Part shown: one piece after another, positions 38,969-64,000 of the stretch
Layout of the letters: each line of letters opens with the position of its first letter
Numbering within the stretch: the first letter of the stretch is position 1
DNA from: Thermosulfuriphilus ammonigenes
GTDB taxonomy: Bacteria > Desulfobacterota > Thermodesulfobacteria > Thermodesulfobacteriales > ST65
NCBI RefSeq assembly: GCF_011207455.1
Contig: NZ_CP048877.1
Span: 674,576 to 738,575, forward strand
DNA length: 64,000 bases
Direction: 5' to 3'
Notes under the pieces: generated by a model
Told to the model about the DNA's origin: nothing
The model's database searches: none
Seen by the model: only the letters and a program-made list of their open reading frames with translations
Made by a program: the position numbers and the translations under genes

Positions 38969-41380
38969 ATGAAGCTTAGATTATCTTTATTTTTGTTCCT
39001 TTTGTTTTTTTCTCCCTCCCTTGTTTTGGCCTTTCAATTTACCCCTCAAGTGGAAAAGCGATCTCTTCGCGAACAAAAAGTAAGAAAGTTCTTTTCCGTC
39101 TGCCCTCCCTTTTATTTAAGGGACGAAAAGGGGCAGATAATCGATCCGGTCCATAACAAGAACGCTGATGAGCCCTACAGCCCCAAAAAGACCTGTGGTC
39201 AATGTCACGACTACCAGCATATTACGAGCGCCTATCATTTTGAGCAGGGACGGCACGAAAAAATCCCTTCCTGGATGAAGGAGCGCTATCCCTGGGTCAA
39301 AAGTCCTGGCCAATATGGAGGCCGCTGGTGAAGTCCGGCTCCCCTTTTCCCGCAGTTGGCGGAAAAAAAGAATTCTTCAGCCAAAGAAATTGATCTTACC
39401 TCTTTTAAATTCGTGTTGGCTTGCGGGAAATGCCATCCTGGGGGTGGCCCTCTGGAGACGGACAGAGAAGGCCATCGATACGACAAATATATGCAGGAAA
39501 AGGGCTTGGTCTCCGGAGGGGTCAACGGCTTTGACGGGGATTATTACAAGGCCCACTGGGATAAGACGGGGGTTATAGAAGCCGATTGTCTTATCTGCCA
39601 CTTACCGGGATACCACTATGAAGAAAGAAATAAACAGATCAAGCTTTTAAATTTCCGTTGGGCGGCTACCGCAGGTGCGGGTTTAGGTCAAATTGTTGGT
39701 GCAGTAAAGGAAGGGACTTCTCCTCGCGTGGTTTATAATCTTCGCTTCTTTGACGCCAAAGGTCGGGTCAAACTGCATTTTGTAAAGGAAGTCCCCCGAG
39801 AAAATTGTCTCTTCTGCCACAAAGAAAGCGATTACAAGAAAAGAGGGGCCAGTTATAAGGCAAGGGACGACGTCCACACGCGGGCCGGGCTTAGATGTGT
39901 GGATTGTCACTGGGCCGGGAGCCGGGCCCGAGACCGAAGGATTGCCGGTCTAGAACTTCATGAAATAGGCAAAGGAGATGATCCGGGAGGCCACGTAAGG
40001 GATGATCTAGACAATACGGTAAGGCCGTGCCTTGATTGCCACGGAAAGGGCCTTCACGGAGCCCCCAAAGCCCTGCACCGTGGTCTTCCTCCGCGGCATT
40101 TGGAAAAATTGGCCTGTCAAACCTGCCACGTACCTTACCGGGCGGTCAAAGCGGCGCTTCTGCAGGACTCTACTCACTTTAATCCGGCTCCAGGCATTTC
40201 CCCTCCCCCTAAAAGGATTTGGACCTTTTATGGGCCCGACGCCAAACCTTGGAATTATTACGGAGAACTCCACCAGGAGGGGACCAAATTCCAGAGACCG
40301 TTTTTATATATCCCTGAAAAGGTCTGGTACAAAGGAAAAATTTGGCCCATGAACCGGGTGCACAGTGCCTGGGTTGGGTTCATCAAGCCGGGCCTTCCGG
40401 GCATTGATATGGTCTTTATGGTGGATTATTTCCGGATGTGGAAAGAACACCTTGCTGATCCCCAGAAGAATTTTCCCGCCTTAAACGAAATAAGAGACGA
40501 TAATCTAGACGGTGTGCCCGAAGTAAATAGGCCCGAAGAAATAAAGGCCCTCCTAAAAGAGGTCAAACGTTATCTTGAGCTTAAGGGAAAGTTCCCGAAA
40601 AAAGCCAGGCTCGTATTCGTCAAAGACGCCGCGTATACCGAAGACGGGAAAAACTGGACCCATCTCAAACACTTCCCCTGGGAGGCCACCCCTTACGCTT
40701 CGGTCTTTAAGTACTCCCATGATATTTATCCGGCTAAAGCGGCCCTCAGGAGCGAAGGGTGTGCAGATTGTCATAGTGGCCGTTCCCCCTTCTTTTATCG
40801 TCCGGTCCTTACTTCTCTGTGGGACGGACAGGGGAAGCTCTCTTTTAGACCGAATTACGAAATCCTTGGTTACTCCGCCTGGGCGGTAAAAGCCCTCACC
40901 TGGCGGCAAGAGGTACTTGAGCCGGTGATGTACTATGGGCTCCTTCTATTTTTCTTCGTTGTCGGCTTAAGCCTCGTCTTTTACGGACCACACTTAAAAA
41001 TAAACGATACCTCTCTTTCCCAGCGCCTAGCCTTTCTGATCTTGACCGTGGCGCTTCTTGGCCCGGCCTTAAGCGTTATCCTGGGCGGGTTTTTCGCCGC
41101 CTCTACTTTGGGCCACCTGGCTTCCCTTCACAAAGTGGTGGGGATTTTATGCGGACTGGCGGCCCTTTATCTCTTCTTTTCTCCAGGCCGAAAGGGCCTT
41201 CTTTTTGCCCTGGGAGCCTTACTCATCCTTTACCAAATCTTGACCGGAGCAGGGCTTTTCTTTTTACAGGGTGGTAATCTTCGCCAAATTATTTTTACCC
41301 TGCACGACCTCGGCGCCTTGCTCACGCTGGCCTGGGCCGGGGTGGTGCTCTTAGTTAATTCCTTTTGGAGGATAAAATGA
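38969..41380 (+). CDS. Membrane octaheme c-type cytochrome, candidate selenoprotein (in-frame UGA, U121)
   Basis: Read through a TGA at 39329-39331, this is one 803-aa protein. A signal peptide (residues 1-21) is followed by eight CxxCH heme sites at about residues 76, 152, 207, 280, 310, 354, 383 and 598, then five C-terminal membrane helices from about residue 645. The UGA lies in GQYGGRW-U121-SPAPLFPQL, between heme sites 1 and 2, and the frame continues without shift. Without read-through the product would be a monoheme fragment and a leaderless 674-aa remainder lacking export. A 9-pair hairpin with loop AGTTG starts 23 bases after the UGA. The role is probably electron transfer between the quinone pool and periplasmic or extracellular acceptors. 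The TSUP permease start overlaps its stop. Confidence 0.78.
39345..39367 (+). other. SECIS-like hairpin in the cytochrome gene
   Basis: CCGC (39350-39353) pairs with GCGG (39359-39362) around loop AGTTG, and after one C-A mismatch TTTT pairs with AAAA. The loop begins at the 23rd base past the UGA and has G in its second position, as in characterised bacterial SECIS elements. Confidence 0.6.
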
Positions 41381-55829: not shown

Positions 55830-56347
55830 ACATTCCCAATCTGATCACCCTTCTGAGAATCCTCCTTGTTCCGGCCTTTGTTATTCTCCTGTTGAGGGGC
55901 TATCGGGAGGGGGCCCTGGCCTTATTTATTGCCGCCGGGGTTAGCGACGGGCTGGATGGTTTTCTGGCCCGGAGCCTTAAACAGCAGACCACTTTAGGGG
56001 CCGTACTTGACCCCCTGGCCGACAAGCTACTCCTTTCCACCTCTTATGTCACCCTGGCCATCATCTCTTACCTGCCTGATTGGCTGGCAGTCCTGGTAAT
56101 CTCCCGAGATGTGCTTATTACCCTGGGAGTGGTGATCATCTTTATCTTTCGTAGCCAGGTAGAAATCAGACCAACCCTCATCAGCAAGGCCACCACCTGC
56201 CTCCAGATAGCCACTGTGGCTCTGGCTCTCTATAATGGAGAAGGAGTCGGGTTAAAATACTTCATCTACCTTACGGCGGCGGCTACTATCTGTTCTGGAC
56301 TTCACTATGTATATAAAGGGATCCGACTTCTCTCTGAGGAGAACTGA
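55826..56347 (+). CDS. pgsA: CDP-diacylglycerol-glycerol-3-phosphate 3-phosphatidyltransferase
   Basis: This 173-aa membrane enzyme makes phosphatidylglycerol phosphate. The CDP-alcohol phosphotransferase motif DG(x)2AR(x)8G(x)3D(x)3D is complete in SDGLDGFLARSLKQQ followed by TTLGAVLDPLADKLL, at about residues 34-64. The NIPNLITLLRILLVPAFV start is typical of PgsA. Four or more membrane helices are present. Its start overlaps miaA by four bases. Confidence 0.94.
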   Translation: MNIPNLITLLRILLVPAFVILLLRGYREGALALFIAAGVSDGLDGFLARSLKQQTTLGAVLDPLADKLLLSTSYVTLAIISYLPDWLAVLVISRDVLITLGVVIIFIFRSQVEIRPTLISKATTCLQIATVALALYNGEGVGLKYFIYLTAAATICSGLHYVYKGIRLLSEEN

Positions 56348-57417
56348 TGCCCGTATTTGATAACCAAAAGTGGACCAACCTTCTTCAGCTGGCCAGATCG
56401 GGCCGAATTGCTCCTGTATATCTCTTCACCGGAGACGAAACCCTTTGCCGCCTGCGTCTCAAGGAACTAAGCCGCTGTCTCCATGAACAAGGATACCTCT
56501 TAAAGGAACTCGAAGACGAAGAGGAACTTTTCCACGAGCTCTCAAGCGGATCACTTCTGGGGATAAGACAGCTTCTGCGTCCAGACCCCCCTCTTTCGCC
56601 CGGGGGCCAGGAACGGCTGGCCAGGATGGTGCGCGGCGGTCTTCCTCCAGGTCTTTGTGTAGCCCTTTTTCTATCTGGCCCCGGCGAGTCCCTCAAAAAG
56701 GCCGCCCGAGATAAAGGAGCTCTGATCCATCTCCGCCCCCCGGGAAAGGGTAGAGACCGACGCCCCCTTTTTAAGGAAGAGGCCTTAAGATTGGCCTCCG
56801 CCTGGGGAAAGACTCTGGGGTCAGGAGCCCTTGAGCTCCTTTACCAGAGGATCGGCGATGACCTCTTTGCCCTGGCCACGGAGATCGAAAAACTGGCCCT
56901 GGCTGCCGGCCCCAGAAGGGAGATCTCCAAAGACCTGGTTGATGAGCTCACTCCTCTGATAAAAGAAGAGTCCCTCCTGGGACTGGCCGAGACCATCACC
57001 ACCGGAGACCTCAGGAGGGCTCTGAGAATCATTCACCGCCTTCTTGAAGGAAGCGGTCTTCCGGCCCTTAAGATTCTGGCTGCCCTGGCCACTTATCTGC
57101 GTCGTCTCCTTCAGGCCCTCTGTCTCCTGGAAGAAGAGGGGTTGGATACCCTACCCTCCTATCCGATCTTCAGCAAAACCATCTTCCCCAAGTTAAAGGA
57201 AAAGCTGCCCGAATATCCTGATCTAAAAGGCCTTCATCCCTATGCCCTCTACCTTCTACTTGAACGGGCCAGACCCCAGAGACTCGATGACCTGATAGAG
57301 ATTTATCTCCAGCTGGCCGAGACCGATATGGCCCTGAAAGGAGGATCCTCCCTAGGATACCTGACCTTGGAGAATTTCGTGGTAACCTGGGCCAGAAAGA
57401 CCGGAGGAATAAGATGA
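56347..57417 (+). CDS. holA: DNA polymerase III delta subunit
   Basis: This 356-aa clamp-loader subunit shows the HolA layout: an early APVYLFTGDETLCRLRLKEL block around residues 22-42, the GSLLGIRQLL segment near 70, and the C-terminal helical part with EESLLGLAETITTGDLRRALRI and LLEGSGLPALKILAALATYLRRLL around 205-260. Sequence divergence in the middle is usual for this gene. Its stop overlaps the next gene (ATGA). Confidence 0.85.
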   Translation: MPVFDNQKWTNLLQLARSGRIAPVYLFTGDETLCRLRLKELSRCLHEQGYLLKELEDEEELFHELSSGSLLGIRQLLRPDPPLSPGGQERLARMVRGGLPPGLCVALFLSGPGESLKKAARDKGALIHLRPPGKGRDRRPLFKEEALRLASAWGKTLGSGALELLYQRIGDDLFALATEIEKLALAAGPRREISKDLVDELTPLIKEESLLGLAETITTGDLRRALRIIHRLLEGSGLPALKILAALATYLRRLLQALCLLEEEGLDTLPSYPIFSKTIFPKLKEKLPEYPDLKGLHPYALYLLLERARPQRLDDLIEIYLQLAETDMALKGGSSLGYLTLENFVVTWARKTGGIR

Positions 57418-57989
57418 GCCTCTATCATCGCCTGGCCAAGTTTCTTTTTGAGGCGGCCATGCTCAAGAGAACACCGCGCACCGGGTATCAATACCTGGGC
57501 AGTGGGGAGGAAAACGTTGCCGCCCACAGTTATGGCACAGCTATCATCGGAATGGTCCTTTCTGAAATGGCTAAAGACGTGGACCGGTGCCGGTTAATCT
57601 GCCTCTGTCTCCTCCACGACCTGCTTGAGGCCCGCACCGGCGATCTAAACGCCCTCAACAAACTCTATGAAGAGCCCGATGAGGAGGCGGCAGCAGAGGA
57701 CATGGCCCGGGATCTGCCCTTTGGAGACCGGATCAGAGAACTCCTTAGCGAGTATCGAACCGGCCAGAGCCGGGAGGCCCTTTTGGCCCACGATGCCGAC
57801 CAGCTGGATATGCTCCTTTCTCTCAAGGAGCAACAGGACCTTGGAAACCCCTACGCTCCCCGCTGGATCAAATTTGTCAAACGAAGAATCAAGACCCCGG
57901 AGGCCCGCCGCCTGGCTGAGGCCATCTGTGAGACGGATTGGGCCAGCTGGTGGCTGGATAAATTCGTAGAAAGGGGAGATGAAGGTTGA
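57414..57989 (+). CDS. HD-domain phosphohydrolase (YfbR-like)
   Basis: This 191-aa protein has an intact HD metal site: AAHSYGTAIIGMVLSEM (first His) at about 37-53, CLLHDLLEARTGD (HD) at about 63-75, and LAHDADQLDML at about 123-133. It resembles the YfbR/HDDC2 5'-deoxynucleotidase group. The substrate is not certain. It overlaps holA upstream and, through TTGA, the metallophosphatase gene downstream. Confidence 0.88.
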   Translation: MSLYHRLAKFLFEAAMLKRTPRTGYQYLGSGEENVAAHSYGTAIIGMVLSEMAKDVDRCRLICLCLLHDLLEARTGDLNALNKLYEEPDEEAAAEDMARDLPFGDRIRELLSEYRTGQSREALLAHDADQLDMLLSLKEQQDLGNPYAPRWIKFVKRRIKTPEARRLAEAICETDWASWWLDKFVERGDEG

Positions 57990-58876
57990 AAAAGCTTCTT
58001 CTGTTCCTCATCTTGGCGGTCATCGGTCTAAATAGCCCGGCAGTGGCCCAAAAAATTACCCTTATTTATACGGGAAAGACCTGGGGTGAGGTGGCCCCCT
58101 GCCACACCTGAAAGGGAGTTCTGGTGGGAGGGCTGGCCCGGAGGGTCGCCTTCATAAAAAAAATCAAGGCCGAGGCCCCAAACGTTGTCTTGGTAGACAC
58201 CGGTGACAGTCTTGCCTTCTGGCCAGAGCTTAGACCACTTCAGATGGGTATGGCCCAAAGAAAGGCCGCTGCTCTGGCCAAGGTTTATCACTATCTGGGG
58301 TATGAGGCGGTGGGGATCGGCCGCCGGGATCTAGGGCTGGGAGCTAAAGAACTTAAGCGTCTCTCCCGCGAGGTTCCCCTTATCTCGAGTAATTTAAAGA
58401 CCCGGGACTTTACTCCTCTAAAGGAGAAGGTGGTAGAGGTCGCAGGGGTAAGGATCGGTATTTTCGCCCTTACCGCCCCGATCCAAAAAACGGGCTTTGC
58501 CATGGAGGATCCTCTTACGGCGGCCGAAAAATCGGTGTCTCGTTTAAGAGAGCAGGGAGCTGACCTGGTGATCTGCCTCTCCAACCTGGGGGAAGAAGGA
58601 GACGAAGATCTGGCCGAGGATATCAGGGGGATAGATCTTATCCTGGGAAGTGGACCGGGGCCGCGCTTGTACAAGCCGGAAGAAATCGACGGAGTCTTTA
58701 TTTTTCGCCCCCATCCCAAGGGAAAATCAGTAGGGGTCATAACCCTTACCTTCAACCAGGGAAGGCTGGAGGCCATCAGTCACCAGCTATATCTTTTAGA
58801 GGCTGATAAATATCCCGAAGATGCGGAAACAGCCATTTGGCTCAAAGAACAAGGGCTTCTCCCCCAAGGGTACTAA
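57986..58876 (+). CDS. Exported UshA-like metallophosphatase, candidate selenoprotein (in-frame UGA, U42)
   Basis: Starting at TTG 57986 (overlapping the previous stop as TTGA) the frame gives a signal peptide (KKLLLFLILAVIGLNSPAVA), then ITLIYTGKTWGEVAPCHT-U42-KGVLVGGLARRVAFIKKIK, LVDTGDSLAFWPEL, and the rest of a 5'-nucleotidase/UshA-like phosphoesterase, 296 aa in total. The TGA is at 58109-58111. Homologues typically have Cys-containing segments before GGLARR, so the C39-x-x-U42 pair looks like a redox or metal CxxU. Without read-through the product would start at GTG 58124 and lose export and its first motif. A wobble-containing hairpin (58119-58143) follows the UGA, but it is weaker than in the other two cases. 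Confidence 0.7.
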
Positions 58877-59966
58877 AGCTCTGGCCGAGGTCTGCAACCT
58901 CTGTGGGGCCTGCGAAGCTGTCTGCCCCATCTATCGTCTGACCGGCCTTGAAACCCTGGTGGCCCGGGGGAAAATGGCCCTTGTACGCTTCAGTGATATT
59001 CCCTCCCAGAGACCTTTCCGGGGCTGTCTTTTATGTGGGGCCTGCAAAGCTGGCTGTTCCGCAGGCGCAGATGCCCCGGAGGTGGTCCGACGTCAGAGAA
59101 AGGAAGGGCTAGGAGGGCTGAATTTTGCCCTCTCCCTCTGGCGGAATGATCCGACCCGCGAGGCCGTTGTGGATCTCCTCCGCCGCGGAACTGGCCTGGC
59201 TTTAAGGATCAGCGGACTCAAAGTCCCCGAACTCCCAAGGCCAGACCTGGCCACCGTAGCCCAGATGATGGGGGCTACCGCCCCCCGGGAGATAGCCATC
59301 TTTACCGGCTGTGGTGGCAACTATCTCTTTCCAGAGGCCAGCTACAGCCTCTGGAGGTTGCTGAATGGCCGGGCCTACTTTCCGGCAGAACAGACCTGTT
59401 GTGGCCTTCCCTTTCTCTCCTTGGGGCTTAAGGAAGAGGCCCGAGAGCTTGCCCGGCGCAACCTAAAGGCCCTTGCCGGGGCCAGGGTGATTATCACTCC
59501 CTGTGTCTCCTGTGCCGCCGCCTTAGAAGAATACCCAAATCTCCTTACGCCCTCAGAAGGAAAGGCCGCTACAGAAATCCTCAAGCGTCTCAAAGGCCCT
59601 GAGGCCTTGCTACCCAGACCTAAAAGGATCACCCCCTTTGCCTTTCATATCCCCTGTCATCTCCGCTTCTCTCTCAAGGAAGAGGCCCCCTTTGTTGAGG
59701 CCATGAGGGAGATCTTCGGTGAAACCTTCTCGCCTCTTGAAAGGGCCTGCTGCGGCTTCGGAGGGCTTTTACCTCTTCTGGAGAGGAAACTGGCTTATCG
59801 AATCCTGGAAAAAAGAGTGGCGGGCCTTCCTGAAGACGTCCCTGTGGTCACCAACTGCACCGCCTGCCTTATCGCCTTAAGACAGAAGCTTCCCAAAGAG
59901 AAGGTCAGACACCTTTACACCTTCTGGCTAGATCCAGAAGAGGCCACTCCCTGGCCTCCTTATTAA
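58821..59966 (+). CDS. (Fe-S)-binding protein, GlpC/GlcF/LutA type
   Basis: This 381-aa protein has two N-terminal [4Fe-4S] motifs (CNLCGACEAVCPIY near residue 25 and CLLCGACKAGCSAG near 71). The C-terminal part has CCG-domain motifs, seen as CCGLPFLSLG near 194 and CCGFGGLLPL near 313, each with its downstream cysteines (PCVSC, NCTAC). Such proteins act as electron-transfer subunits of glycolate, lactate or glycerol-3-phosphate dehydrogenases, or heterodisulfide-type complexes. No partner oxidase is adjacent. It starts inside the previous gene (56-base overlap); a slightly later start is possible. Confidence 0.88.
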   Translation: MRKQPFGSKNKGFSPKGTKALAEVCNLCGACEAVCPIYRLTGLETLVARGKMALVRFSDIPSQRPFRGCLLCGACKAGCSAGADAPEVVRRQRKEGLGGLNFALSLWRNDPTREAVVDLLRRGTGLALRISGLKVPELPRPDLATVAQMMGATAPREIAIFTGCGGNYLFPEASYSLWRLLNGRAYFPAEQTCCGLPFLSLGLKEEARELARRNLKALAGARVIITPCVSCAAALEEYPNLLTPSEGKAATEILKRLKGPEALLPRPKRITPFAFHIPCHLRFSLKEEAPFVEAMREIFGETFSPLERACCGFGGLLPLLERKLAYRILEKRVAGLPEDVPVVTNCTACLIALRQKLPKEKVRHLYTFWLDPEEATPWPPY

Positions 59967-59975
59967 GGAGGGAAT

Positions 59976-60653
59976 ATGTCCAGAATCCTGATAGTAGAGG
60001 ATGAAAGAGACATTGCTGATCTTGAGGCCTTTCATCTCCAGAGGGCCGGCTTTCAGACCCTCCTGGCCGAGACAGGTCAGGAGGCTCTGAAACACCTGGA
60101 AGGAGGAGATATAGATCTGATCATCCTTGACCTAATGCTCCCTGATATGGATGGGCTGGAGATTATCAAGCGGGTCCGGCTTCGGGAGAGGCTTCAGCGG
60201 CTACCTATAATCGTTGTCACCGCCAAGGGAGAGGAGATGGACAGGATATTGGGCCTTGAGCTGGGGGCAGACGATTACGTCGTTAAGCCCTTTAGCCCCC
60301 GAGAACTGGTCCTCAGGGTCAAGGCGGTGCTTAAGAGAACCGGCTCCCGGGAGGAAACCGGAGGGATCATTCGTATAGATGGTCTGACTATCGATGAGGA
60401 ACGTTTTCAAGTCCTGATAAATGGGACCCCTGTAAAGCTAACGGCCACAGAATTTCGGCTTCTCTCCACCCTGGCCCGGGCCAGGGGCCGAGTGATGACC
60501 CGAGAAGTTCTGCTGGATAAGGTCTGGGGCTATCACTTTGAGGGATACGCCCGGACGGTGGACACCCACATCCGAAGGCTTCGCAAGAAACTTGGCCCCA
60601 TGGCCGACTACATCGAAACCGTCTGGGGGGTAGGGTATCGTTTTCGGGAATGA
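59976..60653 (+). CDS. phoB: PhoB-like response regulator
   Basis: This 225-aa OmpR/PhoB-family regulator has a receiver domain with E10-D11 acidic pair (LIVEDERDI), phospho-acceptor Asp in IDLIILDLMLPDMDG near residue 53, a VVTAKG Thr/Lys switch, then a C-terminal winged helix (TATEFRLLSTLARARGRVMTREVLLDKVWG). It has an AAGGAGGG site. It is followed by a PhoR-like kinase, a phosphate-type porin and pstS, so phosphate starvation control is the likely role. Confidence 0.92.
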   Translation: MSRILIVEDERDIADLEAFHLQRAGFQTLLAETGQEALKHLEGGDIDLIILDLMLPDMDGLEIIKRVRLRERLQRLPIIVVTAKGEEMDRILGLELGADDYVVKPFSPRELVLRVKAVLKRTGSREETGGIIRIDGLTIDEERFQVLINGTPVKLTATEFRLLSTLARARGRVMTREVLLDKVWGYHFEGYARTVDTHIRRLRKKLGPMADYIETVWGVGYRFRE

Positions 60654-61743
60654 ACTTATCTTTTTAAGTCTAGGGGTTCTCTTAGGTCTGGGTGGAGCCC
60701 TTCTGTTTCTTAAAAAGAGGGGGGGCCGAGAGCTTAAGTCTCCCCTGCCTCCCCCCGGAGAGAAGACCTGCGACGAAAGAGATTATTTAATCAAGGCCCT
60801 GGATTGCCTCGAGGAGGGGGTGGCCCTGCTGGATCATTCCGGCAAGATCCTCCAGACCAATTCCCTCTTCTCTTTTCTCCTCCCGGCCCCTGACCCTCAG
60901 GGCCGCAATATTCGGGAGATCCTCCGCAAACCAGAATTTGTCGCCGCCCTCACCAGGGAAGAGGAGATCACGGTTTACCTGGACCCCAGCTGGACCGGCC
61001 GGGGGCATCTTGAAGTCCGGCTGATTCCCCTGGCCGAAAGAAAGGTCCTTCTCCTTAAGGACGTTACCAGGATCCGCCAGATGGAAGTCAGTCAGAGAGA
61101 CTTTATCGCCAATGTCTCCCACGAGCTCAAAACGCCCCTAACGGCTATTGCCGGCTACGCCGAGACCATTCTGGAGGAGAGCCAGGATGAAATCATAAGC
61201 CATTCCGCCAGAGTAATACTCAAACACTCCGAAAGGCTCACCAAACTTATCCGCAACCTCCTGACCCTCTCAAGTCTTAAGGGCCACCTTCTTGAAGAAA
61301 AGATTCTCCTTGAAGCCGTGGTGCTCCAGAGCCTGGAAGCGGTAACTTCCCTGGCCCGAGAGAAGCAAATAAAACTCACCTTTAAAGGCAAAGGGCAGGT
61401 GTTCCTTAGGGGAAAGGAGGATCTCCTCGTGCAGGCCCTTATAAACATTCTAGAAAATGCCATAAAGTTCTCCCCTCCAGGCTCAAAGGTGGAGCTCACC
61501 ACAGAGACAGAAGGGCCGTGGATCAAAATAACCATTGCGGATCAAGGGCCGGGAATACCCGAAGAAGCCAAAGAGAGAATATTTGAGAGATTCTACCAGG
61601 CCGGGCGAGACAGGCGCCAAGGGGCCGGATTAGGTCTGGCCATCACTAAGGAGATCATCACCGTCCACGGAGGCTGCATCTGGGCCGAAAATCTCCCCTC
61701 AGGGGGAGCGGCGTTTCATATTATCCTGCCAGCAATTCCCTAA
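60650..61743 (+). CDS. phoR: PhoR-like histidine kinase, 5' end frameshifted
   Basis: This is a kinase with an N-terminal membrane helix (LGVLLGLGGALLFL), a PAS domain (LDCLEEGVALLDHSGKILQTNSLF), HisKA with acceptor His in VSHELKTPLTAIAGYAETI, and HATPase boxes (NILENAIKFSPPGS, DQGPGIPEEA, GAGLGLAITKEI). The only suitable ATG (60650, overlapping the phoB stop as ATGA) is one base out of frame with the rest. A single extra T in the run at 60661-60665 would restore about 364 aa. The domain-bearing frame has no start codon before GTG 60820. It is either an indel error or slippage at this T-run. Confidence 0.82.
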
Positions 61744-61757
61744 AGACCGCCATTTTT

Positions 61758-61790
61758 TTGTCAAAGATTCTCCATCAGTTTGTCATAGGC
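61758..61790 (+). promoter_or_regulatory. Pho-box-like phased repeats upstream of the porin
   Basis: TTGTCA at 61758-61763 and again at 61780-61785 are 22 bases apart, two turns of the 11-bp spacing PhoB uses. A weaker middle unit (TCTCCAT) lies at 61769. They sit about 65 bases before the porin ATG, and phoB-phoR lie directly upstream. Confidence 0.5.
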
Positions 61791-61849
61791 CGCCCCTAAA
61801 GTAGGCCCTGCCTATTCAGGCAAATCAAATCCTTTAAGGAGGTGTCTCC

Positions 61850-63253
61850 ATGAAGATGTTATGGGGCTTTTTGCTGGTGCTTGTCCTCGTCGCTCCCGCC
61901 TGGAGCTACCAGGTAGATGACCCTTTGCTAAGGGTTCTTATCCGAAAGGGGATTCTCAGCGAAGACGAGGCCCTGGAAATTCTCCAGGAGGCCCGCAAGG
62001 AAAAGGTGCTTGAAGAGCAGAGGACACGAAAGATCGCCCAGGAAGTGGCCAGGAAGGAAAGTACCAAGGTGGCCCTGCCCAAAGGGCTAAGGGGAGTTAA
62101 ACTGGGCACTCTTACCTACATTGACTACTCCGCCGGCAAGAAAAACGGAGAATCTTACAACAAGTTCGCCATCACCAGAGGATACCTCAACTTCAAAAAG
62201 AAGATAAATGACTGGTTGAGCTTTCGGATGACCCCGGATGTCCATCTAGATGATAATGGTGACCTTAATGTGCGTATCAAATATGCCTATGCCGGTTTCA
62301 AGCTCCCCTCCTTCGGTTTCCTGACCGATATCAAGATGGAGGCCGGCCAGGGCCACTTCCCCTGGCTCGATTTTCAGGAGCATATCAACCCCTACCGGGC
62401 TCAGGGAACCATGGCCCGGGAGCGGGCCGGAACTTTCAACTCCGCTGATGTCGGCGTCTCCATCGCCGGATACTTCGGGGGCCGGCTGGACAAGACCTAT
62501 GTCCGGGAGCTCTCCAGCCACTACCCCGTCTTTAACCATTACGATGGTAAGTATGGTTCCTGGTGGTTCTCGGTGATGAATGGCGGTGGTTATCACGCCA
62601 AGGAGAATAACCAGAACAAGGTCATCGAAGGCCGGATCACCCTAAGACCTTTTGGGGATTATACCCAGGGGTTTATGCCGCTGGCTGGTCTTCAGTTCAG
62701 CTACTTCTTCATCCGGGGAGAGGGGAACAACACCCCGGCAGAAAACTACTCCAGCGGCTACAGCTCCGGGCTGGTCAGCGCCAACACCTCCCTTGATAGC
62801 TGGAACAAGGAATATCCAGACTACAACCTGGACCTCTTTATGCTTTCCTACCAGCACACCTGGTTTGTGATCACCCTGGAGTACAGCACCTCTGAGGGCA
62901 ATAATTCCGGCAAATGGGTTGGCCCCACCGGCGAGGCCCTGGACACCGAGCTCTGGTCTGTCTTTGCCGATGTCACTCTGCCGGTCTTCGGTGAGAGGCT
63001 TCACCTCTTCGGTCGTTATGACAGCTTCGATCCCGATGAAGACGATGTCTGGACTGCCGGTATCGGAGACGATGAATACGACCTCTACATGGTTGGTCTG
63101 GCCTACCAGGTCTACAAAAAGAACATGATCCTTCTGGTCAATGAGTGGGTGGACTATGAGCGCAACAACGGCGGGCTCAAAAAGCTCCCTTCGGTTAACA
63201 AGGCCCTGGACAACGACTACCGAATCCAGCTGGTCTATCAGGTGAGTTTCTGA
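61850..63253 (+). CDS. Outer-membrane porin of the OprO/OprP (phosphate-selective) type
   Basis: This 467-aa protein has a signal peptide (residues 1-19, ending APAWS), a short helical SLH-like or coiled N-terminal part (VLIRKGILSEDEALEILQEARKEK), and a long beta-barrel domain with alternating aromatic strands, closing in YRIQLVYQVSF. The terminal Phe is the classic outer-membrane insertion signal. It lies between phoR and pstS behind a Pho-box-like site, so phosphate or polyphosphate uptake under starvation is the likely role. It has an AAGGAGG site. Confidence 0.85.
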   Translation: MKMLWGFLLVLVLVAPAWSYQVDDPLLRVLIRKGILSEDEALEILQEARKEKVLEEQRTRKIAQEVARKESTKVALPKGLRGVKLGTLTYIDYSAGKKNGESYNKFAITRGYLNFKKKINDWLSFRMTPDVHLDDNGDLNVRIKYAYAGFKLPSFGFLTDIKMEAGQGHFPWLDFQEHINPYRAQGTMARERAGTFNSADVGVSIAGYFGGRLDKTYVRELSSHYPVFNHYDGKYGSWWFSVMNGGGYHAKENNQNKVIEGRITLRPFGDYTQGFMPLAGLQFSYFFIRGEGNNTPAENYSSGYSSGLVSANTSLDSWNKEYPDYNLDLFMLSYQHTWFVITLEYSTSEGNNSGKWVGPTGEALDTELWSVFADVTLPVFGERLHLFGRYDSFDPDEDDVWTAGIGDDEYDLYMVGLAYQVYKKNMILLVNEWVDYERNNGGLKKLPSVNKALDNDYRIQLVYQVSF

Positions 63254-63273
63254 TACCCTCTGACTCTCCTCCT

Positions 63274-63301
63274 CCCGGACGGGCTGACCGGCCCGTCCGG
63301 G
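63274..63301. terminator. GC-rich hairpin between porin and pstS
   Basis: CCCGGACGGGC (63274-63284) and GCCCGTCCGGG (63291-63301) pair perfectly around a 6-base loop, followed by a smaller CCCC-AAAA-GGGG hairpin and no T-run. It may be a weak terminator or an RNA stabiliser that sets the porin/pstS ratio. Confidence 0.6.
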
Positions 63302-63374
63302 CCCCAAAAGGGGGAGCTGGAAATCTAGCGAATAAAAAACTAGCTTATAGGCAGGCTTAACAAAGGAGGGCTCT

Positions 63375-64000
63375 ATGAAACGATTACTTATTCTTATGAG
63401 CGTCATAATGCTTCTGGCCCTGGGAATCTCCCCGGCAGGGGCTAAAAAGGTCCAGCTTTTAGGGGCCGGGGCCACTTTCCCCTACCCTCTTTACTCCAAG
63501 TGGTTTTCCGTCTATCACCAGAAAACCGGAGTCAAGATTAACTATCAGGCTATTGGCTCCGGTGGGGGAATACGCCAGATCATCAATCGCACCGTGGATT
63601 TTGGGGCCTCAGACGCCCCTATGAGCGACCAAGAACTGGCCAAGGCCCCGGGAAAGATTCTTCATATCCCCACGGCTTTGGGAGCAGTGGCGGTGGTTTT
63701 TAATGTTCCGGGAGTCACCGAACTTAAGCTTTCCCCGGAGGTTTTGGTCGATATCTTCCTTGGCCGGATCAAAAAGTGGAACGACCCAGCTATAAAGGCC
63801 CTAAACCCCCAGGCCAAACTCCCCAAACTTCCCATAATGGTGGCCCATCGTTCCGACGGATCCGGAACAACCTATGTTTTTACCGACTATTTAAGCAAGG
63901 TCAGTCCTGAATGGGCCAAACGCGTGGGCCGAGGGAAATCTGTCAACTGGCCAGTGGGAATCGGTGGCAAGGGCAACCAGGGAGTAGCCGGTATTGTTCT
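63375..64000 (+). CDS. pstS: Phosphate ABC transporter substrate-binding protein PstS (3' end cut by window)
   Basis: A signal peptide (about 1-23, ending PAGA) is followed by the PstS N-terminus: [47 protein letters not shown], then [18 protein letters not shown]. These include the phosphate-binding loop residues, with Ser, Asp and Arg-Ser-Asp-Gly-Ser-Gly intact. The start is ATG 63375 with AAAGGAGGG. The frame continues past the right edge. It belongs with phoB/phoR and the porin to a phosphate-starvation locus. Confidence 0.95.

Follow-up and report, generated by a model that had tools for sequence, protein, structure and literature searches.

A UshA-like selenoprotein gene with a putative SECIS hairpin and a largely lost metal site in Thermosulfuriphilus ammonigenes

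Analysis of a 64,000-nucleotide stretch of Thermosulfuriphilus ammonigenes DNA (hereafter the window) pointed to a UshA-like selenoprotein gene on the forward strand (57986-58876), encoding 296 amino acids with a selenocysteine (Sec) at residue 42. The case is real and well supported, and it comes from an unmodelled branch of a known kind of selenoprotein; the protein is a member of the already catalogued UshA-like (seleno)protein group, and not of a new group. We propose, with a probability of roughly 60%, that it is an exported redox protein with a Sec-Cys pair, built on a phosphoesterase scaffold that has been disabled, with Sec42 decoded by means of a SECIS element, and not a phosphatase. 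The label "metallophosphatase", which a sequence-only reading of this DNA had attached to it, should not be adopted. UshA-like selenoproteins have been listed since 2008, and no function for them was found in the literature.

The gene starts with TTG (57986-57988), which shares 4 nt with the end of the upstream HD gene (57414-57989), and stops with TAA (58874-58876). Its translation reads LKKLLLFLILAVIGLNSPAVAQKITLIYTGKTWGEVAPCHT-U-KGVLVGGLARR... and contains one in-frame TGA (58109-58111, forward strand, residue 42). Cys39 of the C-x-x-U motif is encoded at 58100-58102 (forward strand), and the GGLARR segment at 58127-58144 (forward strand) is kept also in true 5'-nucleotidases (VGGVARR in 2z1a). 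The first codons (57986-58048, forward strand) encode a probable Sec-type signal peptide, LKKLLLFLILAVIGLNSPAVA/Q with cleavage before Q, judged by eye; hydrophobic leaders also open the proteins of relatives, and we infer from the leader that the selenoprotein is exported. Under table 11 without readthrough, only a 250-aa ORF from GTG 58124 remains. Standard annotation would start at this GTG and miss both the signal peptide and Sec, so the gene call needs correction. The TTG start overlapping the upstream stop and the signal peptide behind it, both claimed by the sequence-only reading, were thus borne out, the latter by eye.

By comparison of sequences, 57986-58876 is one gene and not a chance continuity of frame, since about 107 relatives carry Sec or Cys at the same column and the stretch ahead of the TGA shows conservation at the protein level (YTGNTWG..PCP.U). 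TGA occupies this column in about 100 relatives, mostly Thermodesulfobacteriota and other "delta" lineages, and Cys replaces Sec in 7. Five Solidesulfovibrio loci (L120, L125, L132, L161, and L163) carry tandem copies with PCPTC (CxxC) beside PCPSU (CxxU), a natural Sec/Cys pair for experiments; a CGC form, with Cys at the Sec column, was found in L013 and L052. Conversely, Cys39 is replaced by Ser while Sec is retained in L008 (PSGU) and L045 (DSGU), and Sec is therefore more conserved than Cys39. All 109 motif-extracted members have Sec or Cys at the column, the extraction motif itself having required one of the two, and merging Sec with Cys leaves the column invariant in alignments A2 and A3.

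While a single-protein scan of genome contigs found no relatives, a degenerate PCxxU...GGLARR DNA pattern succeeded. The pattern P-C-x-x-TGA-x5-GG-[LIM]-A/T-R-R matched 101 stretches among 84,980 species genomes, with about 1 estimated by chance; among the matches listed, nearly all belonged to Desulfovibrionales, Syntrophaceae, and other "delta" lineages. Compared with 60 relatives' genomes, the read-through protein had matches in 17, nearly all of the stronger ones with exactly one TGA, and the NF049981 model had matches in 121 of the 297 genomes of the phylum. Comparison with relatives thus shows UGA 58109 to be decoded, as judged from sequence, as Sec42. The sequence-only reading had proposed this alignment with homologues and had named, as evidence that would count against it, homologues starting at the equivalent of GTG 58124 or lacking Cys/Sec at position 42; the outcome favours its selenocysteine reading of C39-x-x-U42.

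The genome contains the complete bacterial set for selenoprotein synthesis. A tRNA-Sec (selC; 76 bits, anticodon TCA), selB (393 bits), selA (633 bits), and selD (376 bits) were all detected above their cut-offs. The selD gene (L074, G000:C1:748881-749804), about 10 kb past the window end, is itself a selenoprotein gene with an in-frame TGA.

Just after the UGA and within the coding region lies a SECIS-like hairpin (58128-58153, forward strand), whose base is 16 nt after the TGA and which consists of 6 bp, a bulged U (58134), 5 bp, and a GGA triloop (58140-58142). A bulged U together with a loop G is also found in known bacterial SECIS elements, that of E. coli fdhF for instance. The hairpin after the selD TGA has the same upper part, with a bulged U, 5 bp, and an AGA triloop, so that RGA is common to both. 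At -17.0 kcal/mol the hairpin is far more stable than synonymous recodings (n = 2,000; mean -8.5, sd 2.6), only 1 of which was equally stable; calling it "only moderate", as had been done before, understated it. Family-wide, hairpin stability gave a mean z of -1.02 over 100 Sec members (Wilcoxon p 6e-13) and of -0.19 over 7 Cys members; the difference between the two (p 0.03) comes from few Cys sequences and from related sequences that are not independent. Rfam at the gathering threshold found only tRNAs within the window, and a permissive scan of 58050-58250 gave chance matches only. As bacterial SECIS elements are poorly covered in Rfam, this is no evidence against a SECIS. The in-gene hairpin is therefore supported as a putative SECIS for the genome's SelB and tRNA-Sec.

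An AlphaFold2 model, built from an alignment of the window protein with 40 named relatives, reached a pLDDT of 93 and a pTM of 0.90. Its nearest solved structure was the 5'-nucleotidase 2z1a (Z 33.1, rmsd 2.2, 265 residues), followed by CD73 (Z 32), UshA (Z 30), and SoxB (Z 30), and profile searches returned the same 5'-nucleotidase and SoxB families, with E down to 1e-39. The metallophosphoesterase fold of UshA/5'-nucleotidase metalloenzymes is thus present, as had been read from the sequence; the protein consists of the N-terminal catalytic domain only, and the C-terminal nucleotide-binding domain is absent. The metal site tells a different story. At the 8 metal and catalytic positions, the window protein has K,W,D,R,R,N,G,G where 2z1a has D,H,D,N,H,H,H,H, so that only the Asp of motif II (D74) is kept; these columns come from an alignment to this one reference, and the last two lie at the end of 2z1a. 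The di-metal ligands and catalytic His (D-x-H, GD, GNH, H, GHxH) are consequently missing as a set. Among 88 CxxU/CxxC members the median number of ligands kept is none of 8, while CxU members with fused hemes retain as many as 4. Pfam gave no domain in the window protein even at E 10, and its Metallophos model no match, which fits the loss of active-site motifs. P38, C39, U42, G48, G49, R52, R53, and G246 are the invariant residues of the alignment.

Comparison therefore shows the fold of a UshA/5'-nucleotidase/SoxB N-terminal domain, with almost all di-metal ligands apparently lost. With 7 of the 8 metal and catalytic residues gone by one alignment, and the C-terminal substrate domain absent, the metallophosphatase or nucleotidase-like activity suggested by the sequence-only reading is unlikely; elsewhere in the family, where up to 4 of 8 ligands are kept, phosphoesterase activity may persist. 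The same reading had placed the C-x-x-U site near the active centre, which appears to hold for its position in the sequence, as the loop follows motif I.

In the accessible text of two papers, UshA-like selenoproteins appear without a function: a 2008 ocean survey (PMC2398784) contains the CxU form and a 2026 review (PMC13188914) both CxU and CxxU. The best NCBIfam match of the window protein was NF041198 (UshA_like_PCGU; 135.2 bits, E 2.7e-39), below the curated cut-off of 275; NF049981 (UshA_like_Sel_2, family 2) scored 111.2 bits, and 102.3 in the genome search, below its cut-off of 140. L173, L119, L138, L136, and L005 likewise fell below both cut-offs. With NF041198, which describes PCGU (C-x-U) proteins at full length with a heme domain, the window protein shares the UshA-like domain, the place of Sec before GGLAR, and export; it differs in having C-x-x-U (PCHTU), 296 aa, no CxxCH, and no C-terminal tetraheme cytochrome domain. 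This domain, of the cytochrome c554 type with four CxxCH motifs, is carried by the CxU sister group. With NF049981 it shares C-x-x-U before GGLAR, a length of about 300 aa, the missing heme domain, and the loss of metal ligands, but it lies outside the Desulfovibrionales clade of that model, in another neighbourhood, and has His instead of Pro after Cys. A quick tree set this Desulfovibrionales clade apart from a second clade that holds everything else, the window protein among it (support 100). The window protein seems nearest to a branch covered by neither model; it is the neighbourhood, and not the tree, that ties it to an HD-linked branch.

Among characterised proteins, the 5'-nucleotidases, UshA, and CD73 (2z1a, 1ush, 4h2i) share the N-terminal catalytic-domain fold and the GG-ARR segment, whereas in the window protein the di-metal ligands are replaced, the C-terminal substrate-binding domain is absent, and Sec is inserted after motif I. 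The thiosulfohydrolase SoxB (2wdc, 4uwq) has the same fold and represents periplasmic relatives that act on sulfur-bound groups; unlike SoxB, the window protein lacks the metal ligands and the C-terminal domain, and no sox genes were noticed beside its gene.

Upstream on the forward strand lie an HD-domain (YfbR/HD_3-like) phosphohydrolase gene, the HD gene mentioned above, and, two genes upstream, holA (56347-57417), encoding the DNA polymerase III delta subunit. Both are conserved neighbours: the HD phosphohydrolase (50-55% identity) directly precedes the UshA-like gene in 11 other contigs, with holA before it in several of them. Downstream, a gene for a protein with two 4Fe-4S clusters and CCG cysteine-rich domains (GlcF/GlpC/LdhH-like; 58821-59966, forward strand) overlaps the selenoprotein gene, and it directly follows it in 4 relatives (L081, L086, L173, and L177). 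In the window, these four genes lie so close that they overlap or all but abut, as genes of a single transcript do. The 4Fe-4S/CCG protein is presumably cytoplasmic, with no evident leader, and direct contact with the exported protein is doubtful; we kept this gene as a genomic association only, and the link may be regulatory or indirect. Directly after it follow phoB, phoR, a porin-like outer-membrane protein gene, and pstS (59976-63998), and in this genome the selenoprotein operon may extend into the Pho regulon. A role in the Pho regulon was considered and rejected, as relatives' loci show only generic histidine kinases and receiver domains and the link looks genome-specific.

In the redox reading, the hairpin would be read as a SECIS by SelB and tRNA-Sec, so that UGA is decoded as Sec42, and Cys39 and Sec42, located in the loop that follows what was once motif I, would constitute a redox pair (selenenyl-sulfide/thiol-selenol). 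Pairs of the CxxU/CxxC type are classical redox motifs. The protein would then be a periplasmic reductase or electron-transfer partner, perhaps acting on a sulfur or thiol compound that occupies the former phosphate pocket, a guess based on the likeness to SoxB. The fused tetraheme cytochrome of the related CxU group would supply or take electrons, which argues for an electron transfer at the outer face of the membrane; for the window protein, the electron partner would be another periplasmic protein. CxxU/CxxC-type motifs stand in motif lists in PMC13188914 and PMC2398784, although the latter counts UshA-like selenoproteins with those that lack a conserved redox motif based on Cys. Against a strict redox pair stand the two members with Ser at Cys39, which indicate that the Cys-Sec pair is not strictly required, and against a general redox role that neither fused hemes nor the CCG neighbour are universal. 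The metal-site loss of most CxxU members, the tetraheme fusions of CxU members, and the Cys/Sec tandems make the redox role directly testable. With somewhat less than even odds, we extend this reading to the whole selenoprotein group, as a di-metal phosphoesterase scaffold turned into a periplasmic redox enzyme through loss of ligands and a Cys-Sec pair after motif I, with the window protein as the founder of a branch that has no model and is linked to the HD phosphohydrolase and the 4Fe-4S/CCG partner.

Other explanations have to be weighed against this. That the TGA is a true stop, owing to a pseudogene, a sequencing error, or a start at GTG 58124, with the upstream part untranslated, agrees formally with the 250-aa ORF of table 11; a start at this GTG would, however, drop the signal peptide and the first beta strand, and the same TGA stands between conserved protein on both sides in the roughly 100 relatives. 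Together with the Cys forms, the Sec machinery, and the hairpin, this led us to rule out a pseudogene or true stop as highly improbable. The protein might instead still be a hydrolase, binding a metal through Cys39/Sec42 and D74 and cleaving phosphate or thiosulfate-type esters as SoxB does, with Sec as ligand or nucleophile and not as redox centre. Active 5'-nucleotidases and SoxB have the same fold and GG-ARR segment, the SoxB model (TIGR04486, E 2.8e-17) was the top-scoring among characterised enzymes, some relatives retain His/Asp ligands, and the gene lies just upstream of phoB-phoR-porin-pstS. We nevertheless regard hydrolysis as unlikely, given the replaced ligand positions of the window protein and the CxxU median of 0/8; the invariant residues offer no plausible new site, and Pho neighbours were not found at other loci.

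The near-complete loss of catalytic residues, with the fold and a soft CxxU site retained, would also suit a non-catalytic binding or carrier protein of the periplasm, with the Cys-Sec site trapping soft metals or metalloids (Hg, As, Cu, or selenite products). It would be unusual, though, to maintain costly Sec just for binding, the hemes fused to relatives point towards electron transfer, and no metal-resistance genes were seen beside the window gene, which makes a carrier quite unlikely.

The window contains a second gene with an in-frame TGA (39329-39331), a probable selenoprotein gene for a multiheme c-type cytochrome with membrane helices (38969-41380, forward strand). The TGA lies within QYGGRW-U-SPAPLFP and is followed by a weak hairpin, and the protein has a weak likeness to TIGR04315. 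A second copy within this genome (C1:455511-457886, 55% identity) has the motif together with the TGA, and so do genomes G013 and G057. The G013 copy (L201, G013:C216:347-2773), from a genome of another family, has 97% identity; despite this, the UshA-like gene was not found in G013, and its cytochrome may be either a recent transfer or a stray contig in the assembly.
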